Source of the DNA: a virus
Virus record (IMG/VR): IMGVR_UViG_3300023090_000010
Coordinates: 1 to 22,378 of that record
DNA: 22,378 nucleotides
Reading direction: 5' to 3' (one strand)
Translations under genes and position numbers: made by a program
Notes under the pieces: model-generated
Told to the model about the DNA's origin: nothing
Databases searched by the model: none
What the model saw: the letters and a program-made list of their open reading frames with translations, nothing else
Part shown: one piece after another, positions 1,180-19,388 of the stretch
Position numbering within the stretch: the stretch's first letter is position 1
Layout of the letters: every line of letters starts with the position of its first letter

Positions 1180-1290
1180 ATGTGGCCGAAGAAACCGAAG
1201 AAGGTAACGTTGGGACTTCCTAAACCGTCAGTAAAGAAGCTGAAGCTGAAGAAAATCCAGCCGAAAAAGATAAAGAAACCCAAGATTTAA
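1180..1290 (+). CDS. Lysine-rich 36-residue peptide
   Basis: ATG 1180 follows a strong GGAGG (1169-1173) at ideal spacing. The frame encodes 36 residues, 15 of them lysine, and the protein contains neither Asp nor Glu. Lysines come in pairs spaced by Pro, Leu and Ile (KKPKK, KKLKLKK, KKIKK). Such a peptide would bind nucleic acid or acidic surfaces non-specifically. It lies directly upstream of the SpeD-like gene. The same purine-rich DNA reads as an acidic stretch in another frame, which is broken by a TAA at 1221. The strong binding site and the ATG favour the lysine-rich reading. The function is not known. Confidence 0.55.
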   Translation: MWPKKPKKVTLGLPKPSVKKLKLKKIQPKKIKKPKI

Positions 1291-1304
1291 AGGACATATA
1301 TGGG

Positions 1305-1661
1305 ATGGTTGAAGAACACAGGCTTATTTTGCGAGGCAAACAATGTGCCGCCGACCTGAGTGCCGCTTTAATCAAGGCGTTCTTCCGCGATTTGACCGCT
1401 ACGCTCGGCATGACGTTGTGGAAAGGTCCATGGTCGTGGCGGATGCAGGAAGAGGGGAAGGAACCAGGCTTTTCGGGAGCGGTATTCTGGACGGAAAGCG
1501 GGACTCAGCTTCACCATTACGCATCAGAGGCAAAAGTGACAGTTGACATATACAGTTGTAAGCGATTCAACGTGGTTGAAGCACAGAGGCTATTCGAATT
1601 GTACTTTCGACCGGAAGAAACATTGAACTGCATACCTGTTTTGGGTTCTTCGAGAGGGTAA
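1305..1661 (+). CDS. speD: SpeD-like pyruvoyl-dependent decarboxylase (AdoMetDC family)
   Basis: A 118-residue protein resembling bacterial class 1b S-adenosylmethionine decarboxylase, which self-cleaves at a Glu-Ser bond to make a pyruvoyl cofactor and produces decarboxylated SAM for spermidine synthesis. Compared from memory with the Thermotoga maritima enzyme, the region from its Ser55 to Cys83 matches without gaps at an offset of two: Ser57, cleavage pair Glu64-Ser65, His70 and Cys85 here for Ser55, Glu62-Ser63, His68 and Cys83 there. An N-terminal EHRLIL fits the usual GRHLV, and the protein ends in RG like part of the family. The residue after the cleavage serine is Gly rather than the usual His, and the usual WPE is YAS, so the substrate may have changed. 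ATG 1305 lies 10 bases after AAAGGA. No other polyamine gene is visible. Confidence 0.75.
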   Translation: MVEEHRLILRGKQCAADLSAALIKAFFRDLTATLGMTLWKGPWSWRMQEEGKEPGFSGAVFWTESGTQLHHYASEAKVTVDIYSCKRFNVVEAQRLFELYFRPEETLNCIPVLGSSRG

Positions 1662-1665
1662 ACAA

Positions 1666-1959
1666 ATGGCGAACAATTTTAACGATAGAACGTGGATTTT
1701 GGACACCGCCGGGGCCACCAGTCAGTATAACGGGCCGGTTTACGTTGGAAGGCTATCTTGGCATCCGACAGCATCAGGGCAAAACCTCATCATAGAAGAC
1801 GGCAAGAAACACGTTCAATGGCAAATAACTTCCATCGCGGCGGGCAACGACGCTTCTGTCGGTATCGAGGACTGGCCCAATCCTGAGCATAAAATCCCTT
1901 GGGATGGCTTCTATATCGCAACGATGGACGGTGGCGTTCTTTATGTTACGGTGATTTAA
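1666..1959 (+). CDS. Hypothetical beta-rich protein upstream of terminase
   Basis: A 97-residue protein starting at ATG 1666, four bases after the SpeD-like stop, with GAGAGGG upstream as binding site. The sequence is rich in aromatic and beta-forming residues with regular Gly/Asp turns (YNGPVYVGRLSWHP, HVQWQITSI, DGFYIATMDGGVLYVTVI), so it is probably a small beta-barrel or sandwich. There is no signal peptide and no cysteine. Its TAA overlaps the terminase ATG by one base, implying coupled translation. I do not recognise the family; a minor structural or packaging accessory role would fit the position. Confidence 0.65.
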   Translation: MANNFNDRTWILDTAGATSQYNGPVYVGRLSWHPTASGQNLIIEDGKKHVQWQITSIAAGNDASVGIEDWPNPEHKIPWDGFYIATMDGGVLYVTVI

Positions 1960-4900
1960 TGCCTCAACTTGACACAGCGTCGCAACTGAACGACTTCGCA
2001 ATGTTTCTGAGCTACACTCCGACATGGCTCTTCTACCAGTTCTGCGCCCTGCCTCCATATTACAATCAGATAGCATTTTTTACCGGCAATCAGCTCGGCA
2101 AAACGAGTGTGCTGTGTCACGAGAAAGTCATGCGGGTAATGGGTTCTCACCCGATACCGGAAAAGAATTTCCTGTATTTTGAGTGCGAAAACGGACACAC
2201 TTACGGGCGGCCTGCGCCGTGGCCGGGACTTCATTTCTTCGGCCTGCAAGATGGTCAATGCTTCAGGCTGTCGGAAAATAAGAGATCGGAAACCAGAAAG
2301 GTTCCTTTCCCGTCTGATATGACCTGCTCGTGCGGGGCGAAACTCAATATTCACAATAGAAGGGCAAACATCTACCGGCTGTGCTCGGAGAACCTGCCGA
2401 TGGAAAAGGAGGGAAGTGGTGCCGAATCAGGAGAAATCAAGAACAGGACTTATCCAGAGCTTAAAAAATGGTTGCCTCCGTTTCTTATCAAAAAAGACAT
2501 ATCGCAACGTAATCCTTCCCTCAAGATCGCAGACCCAAACGGTGGATGTGTCTTTGGGGAAGGTGCTAATGCTATACAATATCCAGGCCATGACATCATT
2601 TTCGAATTTGTTTCCTACTCGCAGGTAACACAAGGAACGGCCGGGACTCAGCGTTTATGCGTGTTCTGCGTGGCTAAGGGCCAACGTGTTCTTATGTCTG
2701 ACGGGGTGTGGAGAAACATTGAAGAACTCATCCCCGGCGATGAACTTATCTGCGAAACAAGGGGCGGGCACGGTACGAGGCAAAGAACAAACAAGATTAA
2801 ACACATTTTCGGCAGAGGCCCAAAACCAGTATATCGAGTTAAGTGTTCGAAGGGGATAACTCTTGAACTAACATCTGACCACAAAGTTATGGTTCCGTCT
2901 ACTGGGAAGTCCCAATATATGCCAGTATCAGAGTTAAAGATAGGCGACAAGATAACGTGCAGAATGAGTGATTTTGACAATGATGATACTATAGAATCTT
3001 GGAAAATGGTGCTACTGGCGGTGGTGTTGGGCGATGGTTGCATTACGGATAAGCAAAAATCGGCTAAATTTACATGCAAAAACGGCAAACTCATCGAGGA
3101 GATAGAACAGCAACTTCCCGATTTTATTTCTTTGCGTAAGCACGTTTTCAAGAATGGTCACTCTCCCGACTACTGGATAAATTCTAACCGCAATATCGGT
3201 AAAAACCGGAATGAGTTCAAAGCTTTTCTCAAACAAATCGGGGTGTGGGGACATTGCGCTGGGTCCAAATATATACCCGATGAAGTGTTTAGACAGTCCA
3301 ATTCTTCGATAGCCCTATTTTTGAGATTTCTTTTTGCAACCGATGGATGGGCATCCAACTCCATCGGTTATTGCTCTACTTCTTATCGGCTAGCGCAGGA
3401 TGTATTTCTCCTACTAAGAAGGCTTAAAATAAGGTCCACTATCAGGGTGAGAACCTTTGAAAATGGTTGGGCAACTCAGTATCATATCTCTGTAAACAAC
3501 TCAAAAGATATTATAAGGTTTGCTGAAATCGTAGGAATAGCCGGGAAGTTAGAACAGTTGGACGTGTTGGTAGAGAAGAGTAAGGGAAGGGTTATCGGAA
3601 GAAGCGAATCGTGTTCTTTCGAGAACAAAAACAAAACCGATATATTTGCACCTTCGGATAGAAATGTGCGGTGGGTGCAAGTGCGTAGCATCGAACCCGT
3701 AGGGGAAAAGGATGTTTACGATATTTCAATGGAAACTGGCGGCTGGGATAAATCATCTAAAACCGGAAAGCAAATTCCAGTTGCTAGATCGCCAAGAAAC
3801 AACTTTCTGATTCAGGGGGGAGCGGTAATTTCCAACTGCGACGAAGAACCGCCGTACACGTTCTACGAGGAACAAGTGCCCCGGCTCATGGCCGAAAATG
3901 GCGACTTCCAACTCGGACTTACGCCGGCCATACGAACCAGCTTCACGTTCGATGAGTTCTTCGAGCAGGCAGAGATTTACGTGAGAACCAAATCGATCTG
4001 CGAGTTCTACAAGACTTCCGGCGAAGAGGACAAATCCAAACCGTTTGAGAAGTTCCCGACAAGACATAGCTATAAAGCCGTTTTTCAGGCATCGACTTAC
4101 GACAATCCAACTCTTAGCCGGGAAGTAATCGACAAGACGGTCGGCAACTATGCAGACCCCGACACGGTAGCCACAAGGCTTTACGGGATTCACAGGCAGG
4201 CGACAGGCAGGATTCTCAAAGATTTCGACTGGAAGATTCATGTTATCGATGCTGATAAATACTTCTCTAACAGCCGCATTCCTCTTTCTTGGACTCATTT
4301 TAGAGGTATTGATTACCATCCTCGTACTCCTTGGGCTTGTGGCGCTTGCAGCCTATCTCCTACTGATGAGATGTATATCTGGTACGCCAAAGGAATCACG
4401 CCTGACAAGTTCACCACGTTTCAGATAATGGAGCAGTTCTCCTACGGATGCATGGACTATCAGTTCAAACTGAACCTTGTGGACCCTCTGGCCGAAGCGA
4501 CGAAAGTTGACCTTGTGACTATGCTCGACGAGATCAACCGAGTTACGAGGGAACTGAAGAGAGACGACATCGGCACGGGCGGCTACTGGCAGGCGTGGAA
4601 CACGAAAGGTGAGTTCGGCCGCGATCAAATCAGGGTGAGACTTAAAAACGCTCGTAAAGTGGGACGGCCCTTCAACAACAAAGTTATTGAGAATGGGCGC
4701 GAAGTCAATCTGCCTACTATATGGATATTCAGGGACGGCGCTCATGAAGCGGCTGAATCAATGGCGAAGTGGAGCTGGGAACAGTGGGTAGATCAACAGG
4801 CCATGACGACCAAAGACGACAAGAACACGCCACAGCAGAAGTACAGTCATCTCAATATGGTTTGGGAGTGCATTCACAAGCATACAGCGTTTAGGTTTAG

Positions 4901-4964
4901 CAAGCATTCTGAGTATCGGGAAAGAGACATGGGTGGACAGTATTTTAAATCAGCGAGGGCATAA
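1959..4964 (+). CDS. terL: Terminase large subunit precursor with intein
   Basis: A 1001-residue precursor; removing the intein (residues 237-626) leaves 611 residues, a normal TerL length. This is the ATP-driven motor and nuclease that cuts and packages phage DNA at the portal. The Walker A motif is FTGNQLGKTS (residues 41-50). A Cys-containing insert follows (C76, C101, C123, C125, C142). The Walker B strand RLCVF-CDEE is split by the intein just before Asp-Glu. The motif GLTPA after the splice fits the coupling motif. The C-terminal part begins an RNase H-like nuclease with Asp785 (GIDYH) and Asp842 (LVDPL) as likely metal ligands. ATG 1959 overlaps the previous stop. No small terminase gene is recognised in the window. 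Confidence 0.93.
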   Translation: MPQLDTASQLNDFAMFLSYTPTWLFYQFCALPPYYNQIAFFTGNQLGKTSVLCHEKVMRVMGSHPIPEKNFLYFECENGHTYGRPAPWPGLHFFGLQDGQCFRLSENKRSETRKVPFPSDMTCSCGAKLNIHNRRANIYRLCSENLPMEKEGSGAESGEIKNRTYPELKKWLPPFLIKKDISQRNPSLKIADPNGGCVFGEGANAIQYPGHDIIFEFVSYSQVTQGTAGTQRLCVFCVAKGQRVLMSDGVWRNIEELIPGDELICETRGGHGTRQRTNKIKHIFGRGPKPVYRVKCSKGITLELTSDHKVMVPSTGKSQYMPVSELKIGDKITCRMSDFDNDDTIESWKMVLLAVVLGDGCITDKQKSAKFTCKNGKLIEEIEQQLPDFISLRKHVFKNGHSPDYWINSNRNIGKNRNEFKAFLKQIGVWGHCAGSKYIPDEVFRQSNSSIALFLRFLFATDGWASNSIGYCSTSYRLAQDVFLLLRRLKIRSTIRVRTFENGWATQYHISVNNSKDIIRFAEIVGIAGKLEQLDVLVEKSKGRVIGRSESCSFENKNKTDIFAPSDRNVRWVQVRSIEPVGEKDVYDISMETGGWDKSSKTGKQIPVARSPRNNFLIQGGAVISNCDEEPPYTFYEEQVPRLMAENGDFQLGLTPAIRTSFTFDEFFEQAEIYVRTKSICEFYKTSGEEDKSKPFEKFPTRHSYKAVFQASTYDNPTLSREVIDKTVGNYADPDTVATRLYGIHRQATGRILKDFDWKIHVIDADKYFSNSRIPLSWTHFRGIDYHPRTPWACGACSLSPTDEMYIWYAKGITPDKFTTFQIMEQFSYGCMDYQFKLNLVDPLAEATKVDLVTMLDEINRVTRELKRDDIGTGGYWQAWNTKGEFGRDQIRVRLKNARKVGRPFNNKVIENGREVNLPTIWIFRDGAHEAAESMAKWSWEQWVDQQAMTTKDDKNTPQQKYSHLNMVWECIHKHTAFRFSKHSEYRERDMGGQYFKSARA
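2667..3836 (+). mobile_element. Intein with LAGLIDADG homing endonuclease in terL
   Basis: An in-frame 390-residue intein. Block A starts at Cys1 (CVAKGQRVLMSDG), block B has Thr69-x-x-His72 (TSDH), and the C-terminus is AVISN (Asn390), followed by Cys+1 of the extein. The endonuclease has two LAGLIDADG motifs, LLAVVLGDG (116-124) and FLRFLFATDG (218-227), with acidic residues Asp123 and Asp226 both present, so homing activity is likely. Block F reads VYDISME (350-356), about 20 extra residues, then NNF where HNF is usual. The penultimate residue is Ser389 instead of His. The DNA is visibly AT-richer than the flanking terL. Host protein activity depends on splicing because the insertion splits Walker B. 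Confidence 0.93.
4240..4428 (+). CDS. Possible overprinted small membrane protein inside terL
   Basis: In the +1 frame relative to terL, an ATG at 4240 preceded by GGAAG (4231-4235) opens a 62-codon frame. Residues 10-43 are almost entirely hydrophobic with one charged residue (Glu22), enough for one long or two short membrane helices. A basic tail of about 19 residues follows. Over this stretch terL switches to T-ending codons (about 29 of 46 codons at 4239-4377, against about 6 of the 33 before), which is what a hydrophobic +1 frame would impose. The same pattern could come from recombination with a T-rich source, leaving the frame a by-product. If real, a holin-like role is the obvious guess. 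Confidence 0.3.
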   Translation: MLSMLINTSLTAAFLFLGLILEVLITILVLLGLVALAAYLLLMRCISGTPKESRLTSSPRFR

Positions 4965-5722: not shown

Positions 5723-5895
5723 GTTTCCTTAGAATCTATGACTTCCTGTGTCCGAAATGCGGACTTTGCGAGGAAGCATTCGTTGATAACGATTCTCAGA
5801 AGAAGCCTACTTGCCCCCGGTGCAAACAGGCAGAGATGGATAGACTTATTCCTGCGCCTGTTTGGCGATGGGCCAACGGCAACAGAGGGTTTTGA
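5719..5895 (+). CDS. FmdB-like zinc-ribbon protein
   Basis: A 58-residue protein with two Cys pairs, CPKC (residues 11-14, with a further Cys at 17) and CPRC (32-35), spaced as in FmdB-type zinc ribbons. The N-terminal IYDFLCPKCG fits the usual 'YxYxCxxCG' start of that family. A Trp-rich tail follows (VWRWANGNRGF). One zinc ion is expected. Such mini zinc ribbons occur beside terminase and portal genes in many phages, with no fixed function. It overlaps both neighbours (ATGA at the start, TGATG at the end), so it is translationally coupled. Confidence 0.7.
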   Translation: MSFLRIYDFLCPKCGLCEEAFVDNDSQKKPTCPRCKQAEMDRLIPAPVWRWANGNRGF

Positions 5896-6464
5896 TGCTG
5901 GAAGAATATGATGAATATCCGACGTGGGGGTTCCAAGGCAAACTGTGCGAATGCGGTTGCGGGAAACCGACTAGCATTATAGCTAAATCGGATGCATCGC
6001 GCGGATATGTAAAGGGACAACCAATGCGGTTTGTCGCGGGACATAGATTTAAGAATCTTCATCGGTTGGGTTCTGAGTGTCCCGCATGGAAGGGCGGTCG
6101 AACTGAAACGGGCAACTATCCTGCTGTTTACATACCGGATCACCCTAAGGCGAATAGTTATGGCTATGTAAACGAGCATATTGTCATCGCAGAGAAAGCC
6201 TTGGGCAAGCCATTGCCTACAGGGGCAGTAGTCCACCACCATGCTTCCGATCAATTAGTAATATGTCAAGACAAGGCATATCACAACATGATCCATCGGC
6301 GTATGCGAGCTTATGAGGCTTGCGGCAATGCCGATTGGGTTAAGTGTTCTTATTGTGCTACATACGACGACCCATCAAATATGTGGATTTCAAAGAAAAG
6401 CGGGTACGGATTCCACCGAGAGTGCCAAAACAAGAGCCGTAAAGCTCGGAAAGCAAACAGATGA
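5895..6464 (+). CDS. Free-standing HNH homing endonuclease, possibly degenerate
   Basis: A 189-residue protein. The N-terminal CECGCGKPT plus a later GH is a zinc-binding type often seen before phage HNH domains. The HNH core runs GYVNEHIVIAEKALGKPL, then AVVHHH, then AYHNMIHRR. The C-terminus has a second Cys/His cluster (KCSYC and HRECQ). Between VHHH and the LVICQD segment there are only three residues (ASD), where related phage proteins usually carry about ten more, including the central Asn. The N of HNH therefore looks deleted. ATG 5895 is preferred over TTG 5862 and ATG 5868 because of the CAGAGGG just upstream and the overlap with the preceding TGA. It lies between terminase and portal, a common homing site. 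Confidence 0.8.
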   Translation: MLEEYDEYPTWGFQGKLCECGCGKPTSIIAKSDASRGYVKGQPMRFVAGHRFKNLHRLGSECPAWKGGRTETGNYPAVYIPDHPKANSYGYVNEHIVIAEKALGKPLPTGAVVHHHASDQLVICQDKAYHNMIHRRMRAYEACGNADWVKCSYCATYDDPSNMWISKKSGYGFHRECQNKSRKARKANR

Positions 6465-18700: not shown

Positions 18701-18942
18701 CGAGCCAAATCACGCTTTCTCATTGGGGGGAGACTTCGTCTTCAACTTCAAACACGGCGCTCATGGACCCGCACAAGACGGGATTTCGGGTAGCAATGCC
18801 GATTCTCAGCCTTCAAAACAACTACTTCAGCGATTCTATCTTTCACAAGTTCGGCTTTACTATGACGGCCGGTGATGAACCATACGGACTGGAAATTTTA
18901 GGGTTAAGCATTCAGTTTGAAAGAAAACACGAGACGAAGTGA
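15733..18942 (+). CDS. Large nozzle-like tail protein with LamG domain
   Basis: A 1069-residue protein. The N-terminus (DGATIGTNFTALQNMRYTDTHPQGILGMTKIN) and the C-terminal 350 residues (IAIWQGNEGIYMFDGKGF, EFAYDIPKKKWFQIE) fit P22 gp10/T7 gp12-type tail nozzle proteins. Residues about 195-395 form a LamG/concanavalin-like jelly roll (LLLHLDNNVTDS, YSGVFDGATAYL, WTIDGWIQT, YFNGYIDEFRVSN) that probably binds glycans. Residues about 400-700 carry two similar beta modules, each with YYWNGSAW (from residues 437 and 621). Start is TTG 15733 with AAAGGATT upstream; no in-frame ATG lies near. Its stop overlaps the next GTG. Confidence 0.75.
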   Translation: MPKDPYAVQKKDIPLSGKLITVDDGATIGTNFTALQNMRYTDTHPQGILGMTKINSTNLANPLVRSAHHFKKAQPVESHVLVQAYDVNGANPAVYRNDATVPATGNFNATPLHTDAAGAQRGLFATATEGAVVYANSVETMIWGGNETRMAAFVNYDPAGTFKLDQTDVLTNTLSDATNCAVLVGHSSAGIDTNTKLLLHLDNNVTDSETTPKTVTNVNVTYSAAVYRFGYSGVFDGATAYLTTPDHADFNFSGGKWTIDGWIQTLSNTNNQTIYAQITDANNWLRVFVDTTGAIKIAINASGTETIIAGTIDSLLIPDGAFHQVEISEKANWYRIFVDGILQASVKSTERPANYTGIVYIGARSNGSSVTDYFNGYIDEFRVSNLCRHTTAFEVPSEPYDTSATTVYCYIGATRPLSGINPYVKTANGASGTIAVYYWNGSAWVAVSSLADGTAGLHQTGSITFTDTSTVAKMRVLDQLVLYWYKIVLSASTSTSLYYVTLTDTMQPLVDLWDGTPRTIDAFEVDNGTSYVDYTNAVYDSSFSTADPSSFCNIGGVQSTSPATDSSYTANTFELFADFASGGTGVAQALAIGFSDRMRAVHFYLGGGNGNTTASTVCYVYYWNGSAWQSVGTVQDGTSANGISMAGTGIISWDPPSPQLEVRRSVNTQDDVQLYYYRFVFTKTLSNTVDVYYATGIPAPIIIYPFKFPVSAMDRIFLCSNQSGPKNQMICSSDSTSQVFNGSDSATFYFGDDTDLTAACWLYSQYGTTLYNTLAITKTSETYILVGDGPSDWVQYQVSPTVGCPAPQTMVSLPAPFEIYGGTSRTIAIWQGNEGIYMFDGKGFMPLHGDIEDYWDRRKTYSINRSMITSSQAFYDQLNQEYHWIFASGTSTTLDTEFAYDIPKKKWFQIERGTGKKLQCGMGLLDTSGNMFNYGFLDTGYMERLEYGNDFDGNPITYIMNLGDIPLEDLWNTTAIRKVKLLCTALTNTPSQITLSHWGETSSSTSNTALMDPHKTGFRVAMPILSLQNNYFSDSIFHKFGFTMTAGDEPYGLEILGLSIQFERKHETK
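17041..17064 (+). repeat. Direct repeat copy 1 in the tail gene
   Basis: A 24-base segment coding for YYWNGSAW recurs in the same frame at 17593-17616 with one difference (T versus C at base 12). The protein around both copies is similar over a longer stretch (VYYWNGSAW, then a variable part with D-G-T), so this is the best-conserved core of an internal duplication. Confidence 0.8.
17593..17616 (+). repeat. Direct repeat copy 2 in the tail gene
   Basis: Second copy of the 24-base YYWNGSAW-coding repeat, 552 bases (184 codons) downstream of the first, so the repeated module is about 180 residues apart in the protein. The near-identity at DNA level, including synonymous positions, suggests a fairly recent duplication or conversion. 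Confidence 0.8.
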
Positions 18943-19388
18943 TAAATATCGTTAAAACGCCCATTGATGTTTTCGCAGAAGACCCCGCATTCTCTGTTTT
19001 GTGCAAGGAATACGAGGGGGAATACATCGAGGACATGCCACCCGCTTGTTTGAGCGTGGGAACCTATAAGGCAATGGATAAAGCCGGAACGATTCATACT
19101 TTTTGCGCCTACAACCAAGGCCAGCTTATCGGTTTTTTGCTGCTGATTATGTCTGTTTTGCCGCACTACAGCGTTCTCGCCGGTATCGTTGAGTCCTTTT
19201 TTGTAGCGGGTCCGGCTCGGAAAACCGGCGCTGGGCTTAAACTTCTCCGAACGGCGGAGCACTTTGCCAAGGAAAGTGGCGCGAAAGTGTTTCTCTGTAC
19301 GGCCCCGGTTGGCAGCCGGATGTGCAAAATTCTCCCGCGCAAGGGATATACCGAAATGGACGTAGTGTTTTCAAGGAGTCTGGTATGA
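18939..19388 (+). CDS. GNAT-family acetyltransferase, GTG start
   Basis: A 149-residue protein with GNAT layout: strands HTFCAYNQGQLIGFLLLIM, then the VESFFVAGPARKTGAGLKLLRTAEHFAKESGAK segment holding the R-x-x-G-x-G-like acetyl-CoA loop (ARKTGAGL), then VFLCTAP and a final MCKILPRKGYTEMDVVFSRSL, the usual 'fYxkxGFxxxxxxxxkxL' end. It would transfer an acetyl group from acetyl-CoA to an unknown amine. GTG 18939 overlaps the previous TGA, and the end overlaps the next ATG. Small GNAT proteins are often found after tail genes in podoviruses. The target is unknown; host or virion proteins are possible. Confidence 0.75.
   Translation: MINIVKTPIDVFAEDPAFSVLCKEYEGEYIEDMPPACLSVGTYKAMDKAGTIHTFCAYNQGQLIGFLLLIMSVLPHYSVLAGIVESFFVAGPARKTGAGLKLLRTAEHFAKESGAKVFLCTAPVGSRMCKILPRKGYTEMDVVFSRSLV

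Follow-up and report, generated by a model that had tools for sequence, protein, structure and literature searches.

Phage polyamine enzymes are known, and their genes mostly lie beside replication genes. The SpeD family, to which some of these enzymes belong, includes S-adenosylmethionine (SAM) decarboxylases (AdoMetDCs) such as the class 1b SpeD of Thermotoga maritima (PDB 1tlu, 1vr7). In phages and prokaryotes, SpeD homologues have repeatedly turned into arginine decarboxylases (ADCs) or ornithine decarboxylases (ODCs), as described in PMC9992855 and PMC10407285; our first-pass annotation also said that some SpeD relatives had taken this route.

Some SpeD homologues encoded by phages are reported to have ADC or ODC activity and no AdoMetDC activity (PMC9992855), e.g., an AdoMetDC homologue of pelagiphage HTVC201P that has ADC activity. 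The same study validated the AdoMetDCs of S-PM2, phiYS40, and P2559S, and these are the ones used in our alignment. According to PMC10407285, SpeDC ornithine decarboxylases are marked by four diagnostic residues (Gln, Thr, Phe, and Tyr), and Pro71 is completely conserved in bona fide AdoMetDCs but not in ADCs.

A divergent phage member of the SpeD family

The gene described here occupies positions 1305–1661 (plus strand) of the window, i.e., the whole stretch of viral DNA analysed (22,378 nucleotides; IMG/VR record IMGVR_UViG_3300023090_000010, positions 1 to 22,378). It is an intact frame of 118 aa with an ATG start, preceded by a possible ribosome-binding site (AAAGGA, 1289–1294, plus strand). 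A PDB sequence search gave only chance matches to nanobodies, so both profile and fold were needed to place the protein, hereafter window SpeD. It scored 37.4 bits against the PF02675 AdoMet_dc profile (cut-off 25, E 3.6e-9) and matched PHROG 3125 ‘S-adenosylmethionine decarboxylase’ (E 9.5e-6). An AlphaFold2 model made from a 68-sequence alignment had a mean pLDDT of 91.5 and a pTM of 0.85. Its best solved match in Foldseek was T. maritima AdoMetDC (E 3.6e-7), and it shares the fold of 1vr7 over 113 residues (Z 16.3, rmsd 2.2 Å), with 16% identity in the structural alignment. The first-pass annotation had called this a SpeD-like enzyme and proposed a profile search and a structure prediction; both have now been run, and both bear it out. 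The family is known and in part characterised; the window gene represents a divergent member of it from a phage, and we annotate it as a predicted SpeD-like pyruvoyl decarboxylase proenzyme.

Near copies of this protein are few: an identical one is encoded in two more metagenome contigs (L002 and L003), the sole near copies found, and our searches gave no diverged orthologue usable for a selection test. Searching phage records with tblastn gave zero matches at 1e-5 and, at a threshold of 10, weak matches only, the top one being a cyanophage SpeD (E 0.1). A protein search of genome contigs with window SpeD found no relative; a degenerate DNA pattern succeeded.

The pyruvoyl serine and the processing/catalytic histidine and cysteine of the PF02675 superfamily are all present. 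In a gapless alignment, Ser57 (codon 1473–1475), Glu64-Ser65 (1494–1499), His70 (1512–1514), and Cys85 (1557–1559), all on the plus strand, correspond to T. maritima Ser55, Glu62-Ser63, His68, and Cys83, and their spacing is the same (Ser57 to Ser65, 8; Ser65 to His70, 5; Ser65 to Cys85, 20). Glu64-Ser65 is thus the predicted self-cleavage site, with Ser65 as the pyruvoyl serine. Across the 68 sequences, Ser65 and Cys85 are invariant and His70 nearly so. The alignment confirms the full catalytic set at Thermotoga spacing that had been claimed against a T. maritima sequence (which agrees with PDB 1tlu), and also the two substitutions listed with it: His64 is Gly66 (1500–1502, plus strand), and Trp70-Pro71-Glu72 is Tyr72-Ala73-Ser74 (1518–1526, plus strand). 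Two further differences from the T. maritima enzyme are that its Phe49 loop is missing and that its Thr-Cys-Gly is Ser-Cys-Lys.

The probable substrate

In window SpeD, changes affect the part of the pocket by which the Thermotoga enzyme holds SAM, and SAM has therefore probably ceased to be the substrate. The Phe49 column contains a gap in window SpeD, but Phe in T. maritima and in the validated AdoMetDCs of S-PM2, phiYS40, and P2559S; Phe49 is also absent from the validated phage ADC of HTVC201P. The conserved Pro after His-x-Trp has been lost (Pro71 to Ala73), as in SpeDA arginine decarboxylases and against the AdoMetDC pattern. Against the AdoMetDC equivalog TIGR03330, a model for one branch of the class 1b enzymes, window SpeD scored 20.1 bits (cut-off 75.65). 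Together, the missing Phe49 loop, the missing Pro, and the low equivalog score add weight to an earlier warning that the enzyme may not act on SAM. Judged from its residues, window SpeD has probably left SAM for another substrate, and arginine or ornithine would be the likeliest replacement.

No close relative was found among published ADC or ODC sequences. The HTVC201P enzyme resembles window SpeD in being the product of a phage gene, in length (~120 aa), in lacking both Phe49 and the conserved Pro, and in its N-terminal half. However, Thr precedes its cleavage serine, it keeps Ser-His, and its gene lies beside ribonucleotide reductase genes. The two proteins fall in separate clades in our tree, but a common clade was not rejected (AU test, p 0.144). 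SpeDC ornithine decarboxylases, as described in PMC10407285, share the SpeD fold and an ending of Asp-Ile-Phe/Tyr-Ser-Cys-Lys. They differ in the four diagnostic residues, none of which window SpeD shows as mapped here (Val60, Glu64, His71, and Thr79 instead); the positions were mapped on L093, L145, L250, and L150 from the order in which that text gives them. Ser-Cys-Lys-x-Phe was also considered as an ODC mark, but we dropped it because short-loop Winogradskyella proteins with His-Thr-Trp-Pro-Glu carry it too.

The best-surviving alternative, which we consider unlikely but not far-fetched, is that the pocket has diverged but the enzyme is still a true AdoMetDC, whose decarboxylated SAM would be turned into spermidine by a host spermidine synthase. 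The complete catalytic set suits such an enzyme, phage relatives with the same Ser-Gly cleavage site retain His-Thr-Trp-Pro-Glu, and placing window SpeD in the half of the tree that contains the AdoMetDCs was not rejected (AU test, p 0.199), although unconstrained trees put it elsewhere. The phiYS40 SpeD is reported to be a functional AdoMetDC (PMC9992855) and has Trp-Ile-Asp at the Trp-Pro-Glu positions, an exception to the conserved Pro in our own alignment, so the substrate loop, judged by these sequences, is not decisive alone. In window SpeD, however, Phe49, Trp70, Pro71, and Glu72 are all changed, and the TIGR03330 cut-off is missed as well.

The Ser-Gly clade and SpeD genes elsewhere

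Ser-Gly at the cleavage site also occurs in CPR bacteria and DPANN archaea, where it was found with the degenerate pattern in genome contigs and with a profile search in two phyla, and a second pattern search found it in the phage proteins L333–L335 and L338. Two trees, built from 76 and 79 sequences, put window SpeD in a Ser-Gly clade with support of 99/95 and 99/96, on a long branch, with L338 outside the clade. When the motif columns were removed, its supported clade was lost; since the alternative groupings were not rejected either, the placement is likely, not firm. We therefore regard window SpeD as a likely member of this clade. On the sequences compared, Gly after the cleavage serine (Gly66 in window SpeD) is a trait of the clade, shared by phage, DPANN, and CPR members, and not a lone oddity. 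These Ser-Gly relatives of window SpeD are new here.

The phage members L333–L335 (L333:2055-2660, L334:2981-3586, and L335:1941-2546) are SpeD-DUF3310 fusions encoded just before prohead protease (XkdF-like) and capsid genes. They share with window SpeD the Glu-Ser-Gly cleavage site and a His at +5, but they keep Trp-Pro-Glu and carry the fused DUF3310, and in L334 and L335 the gene comes directly after one for a DNA methyltransferase. Ser-Gly is combined with Trp-Pro-Glu in the nearest phage relatives, L333 and L334, so the clade may include SAM enzymes.

The uncharacterised DPANN/CPR proteins are up to 33% identical to window SpeD and, like it, have Arg replacing His near the start; three of them (L037, L056, and L077) also share V-D-I-Y-S-C-K-x-F with it. 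His68 is Tyr in 17 of the 18 prokaryote members compared, and only one keeps Ser55, whereas both residues are retained in window SpeD and in the three phage members included in the comparison. From this contrast, the phage members look active, while the prokaryote ones may lack the usual self-processing. The DPANN/CPR branch of PF02675 with Ser-Gly and with Tyr for the catalytic His is encoded by stand-alone genes in L303–L321 and L274–L279. No polyamine genes were evident within ~1.5 kb either side of the prokaryote Ser-Gly genes. In L077:2325-3215 (minus strand; a CPR bacterium) and L125:2-712, the Ser-Gly SpeD-like domain is fused to a SET methyltransferase domain; a SET domain was found neither in the window nor in the record of a related phage (described below).

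Could the clade have a function of its own? A separate Ser-Gly branch that acts on another amino acid or amine, outside polyamine synthesis, would fit the well-supported grouping of window SpeD with the DUF3310 fusions and the DPANN/CPR proteins, the neighbourhoods of the prokaryote genes, and the two SET fusions. Against this, window SpeD is on a long branch, no clade is supported without the motif columns, and the prokaryote members lack the His and mostly the Ser that window SpeD keeps and so may not work alike. We think such a branch function improbable. The narrower idea, that window SpeD is a catalytically complete phage member of an undescribed Ser-Gly branch and has a substrate or use beyond the chemistry of AdoMetDC, ADC, and ODC, is a little easier to accept but still doubtful.

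SpeD genes in other phages repeatedly lie directly after a DNA methyltransferase gene (L004:6479-8324, L005:2635-4276, L020:988-2815, L168:6788-8357 on the minus strand, L334:1087-3586, and L335:624-2546). The two genes overlap in four phages, where the methyltransferase is of ParB-N6/N4 type; other types precede SpeD in L334 and L335. One of the SpeD proteins encoded behind methyltransferase genes, from P2559S, has been validated as an AdoMetDC (PMC9992855). Decarboxylated SAM could, by analogy with carboxy-SAM and phage carboxymethylcytosine (PMC12783734), serve as the donor for a DNA-modifying transferase, giving aminopropylated DNA; our literature search found no paper on decarboxylated SAM for phage DNA modification. 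An N6/N4 DNA methyltransferase was not found in the window or in the related phage record. Two other arrangements were seen: in one DPANN genome, an AdoMet_dc domain is fused to deoxyhypusine synthase (L327:1411-2355; PF01916), and the isolated Microcystis phage MaAM05 carries a single cluster with speE, speB, and two SpeD genes in tandem (L021:2483-5261), possibly a complete spermidine route. The available part of PMC10407285 describes speDA adjacent to speY, but not an AdoMet_dc-deoxyhypusine synthase fusion.

Gene neighbourhood, timing, and a related phage

The window gene belongs to a run of plus-strand genes with short gaps or overlaps. The run begins with a 97-aa probable lipoprotein (580–873) of the presumed lysis group, whose LPAM_1 lipobox is below the cut-off (15.7 of 20 bits). 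A 91-aa holin-like membrane protein follows (884–1159; no Pfam match), and then a tentative, very short Lys-rich gene (1180–1290; 36 aa, 15 Lys) that has a GGAGG Shine-Dalgarno sequence, belongs to no family, and ends where the speD ribosome site starts. The first-pass annotation had placed speD right before terL, but a conserved 97-aa gene (1666–1959; no family found) intervenes. The terL gene for the terminase large subunit (1959–4964) is interrupted before its DEE motif by an intein with a LAGLIDADG endonuclease (2667–3836; Pfam LAGLIDADG_3 and Intein_splicing). Downstream lie a head protein (Mu-like gpT in Pfam, major head protein in PHROG) and an SU10-type adaptor; contig L002, which reaches 4.5 kb further left, adds a phage lysozyme. 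Because the run from lysis genes to terminase is tight and on one strand, window SpeD is probably made late. Sigma-70-like sites in the region were no more than chance (7 vs 7.3 expected). In a biased sample of 50 virus records, 11 had a detectable terL (phrog_2), with SpeD no more than ~2.5 kb away in four of them (G009, G017, G040, and G048).

A search with the C-terminal portion of TerL brought up contigs with a 79% identical TerL (a portal bait found the same species only). The related phage L271 has a holin-like gene, a Lys-rich gene, a SpeD homologue (70.6 bits against PF02675), ~4 kb of other genes, the 97-aa gene, and an intein-free terL. The terminase annotation is based on its TerL, which matches annotated terminases of Arthrobacter and other phages (E 2e-9); Pfam and PHROG models gave nothing above cut-off on TerL, and the structure model of the intein-free protein had a pLDDT of 28.7. 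The intein is also absent from a near relative, L017 (98% identical TerL), so it was recently gained or lost. The L271 holin-like protein matches phrog_126 holin weakly (E 0.027). Its Lys-rich gene (L271:2181-2366; 61 aa, DUF3008-like below cut-off) stands in place of window 1180–1290 and encodes a product with no detectable homology to the window one; it is possible that the short Lys-rich ORFs ahead of speD encode DNA-binding peptides. HNH-type endonuclease genes sit at differing places in the two phages (window 5862–6464, with an HNH_3 match below cut-off, and L271:5984-6502 on the minus strand) and are likely mobile. The tail region of the window also contains a GNAT acetyltransferase (18939–19388; PF00583); phage spermidine N-acetyltransferases are known.

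Besides TerL, the two phages are 83% identical in the head protein, 73% in the portal-sized protein, 73% in the 97-aa protein, and 44% in the holin-like protein, but only 30% in SpeD, and the L271 SpeD falls elsewhere in the tree. SpeD has therefore either evolved very fast or been replaced by another in one of the phages, and both readings suggest that SpeD activity was kept at the corresponding place. That a related phage retains a SpeD in this module is new here. The low SpeD identity, together with the changes at His64 and in the loop, could also be read as decay, i.e., a non-enzymatic relic or a protein without self-processing. We judge this very unlikely, as the frame is intact, all processing residues are present, the fold is well defined, and the protein is identical in three metagenome contigs.

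T3 SAM lyase depletes SAM early against host restriction or methylation, and a similar role here, which would lower SAM if SAM were the substrate, is scarcely credible given the pocket changes and a same-strand position between the lysis genes and terL that suggests late expression.

With moderate confidence, we favour a late-expressed, self-processing pyruvoyl decarboxylase that has probably moved from SAM to a different substrate, be it arginine, ornithine, or some other amino acid. The proenzyme, of AdoMetDC/SpeD fold, would cut itself between Glu64 and Ser65, turning Ser65 into the pyruvoyl group. The substrate amine would form a Schiff base with this group and then lose CO2, with His70 and Cys85 as catalytic helpers and Cys85 protonating the product, as is established for the family. 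Arginine or ornithine would give agmatine or putrescine. A spermidine synthase was not found in the window, L002, or the 49.7-kb record of the related phage, nor an arginase/agmatinase in the window and the related phage record, so the product would act directly or need host enzymes. Such a late-made di-cation would help to balance packaged DNA or support late translation; a polyamine for DNA packing is what the gene order suggests.

Phage polyamine genes mostly lie near replication genes, whereas the window speD sits between lysis and packaging genes. In the Ser-Gly branch of the SpeD family, the catalytically complete members are the phage ones. That a related phage has a very different SpeD in the same module suggests that the activity, and not one exact enzyme, matters late in infection.
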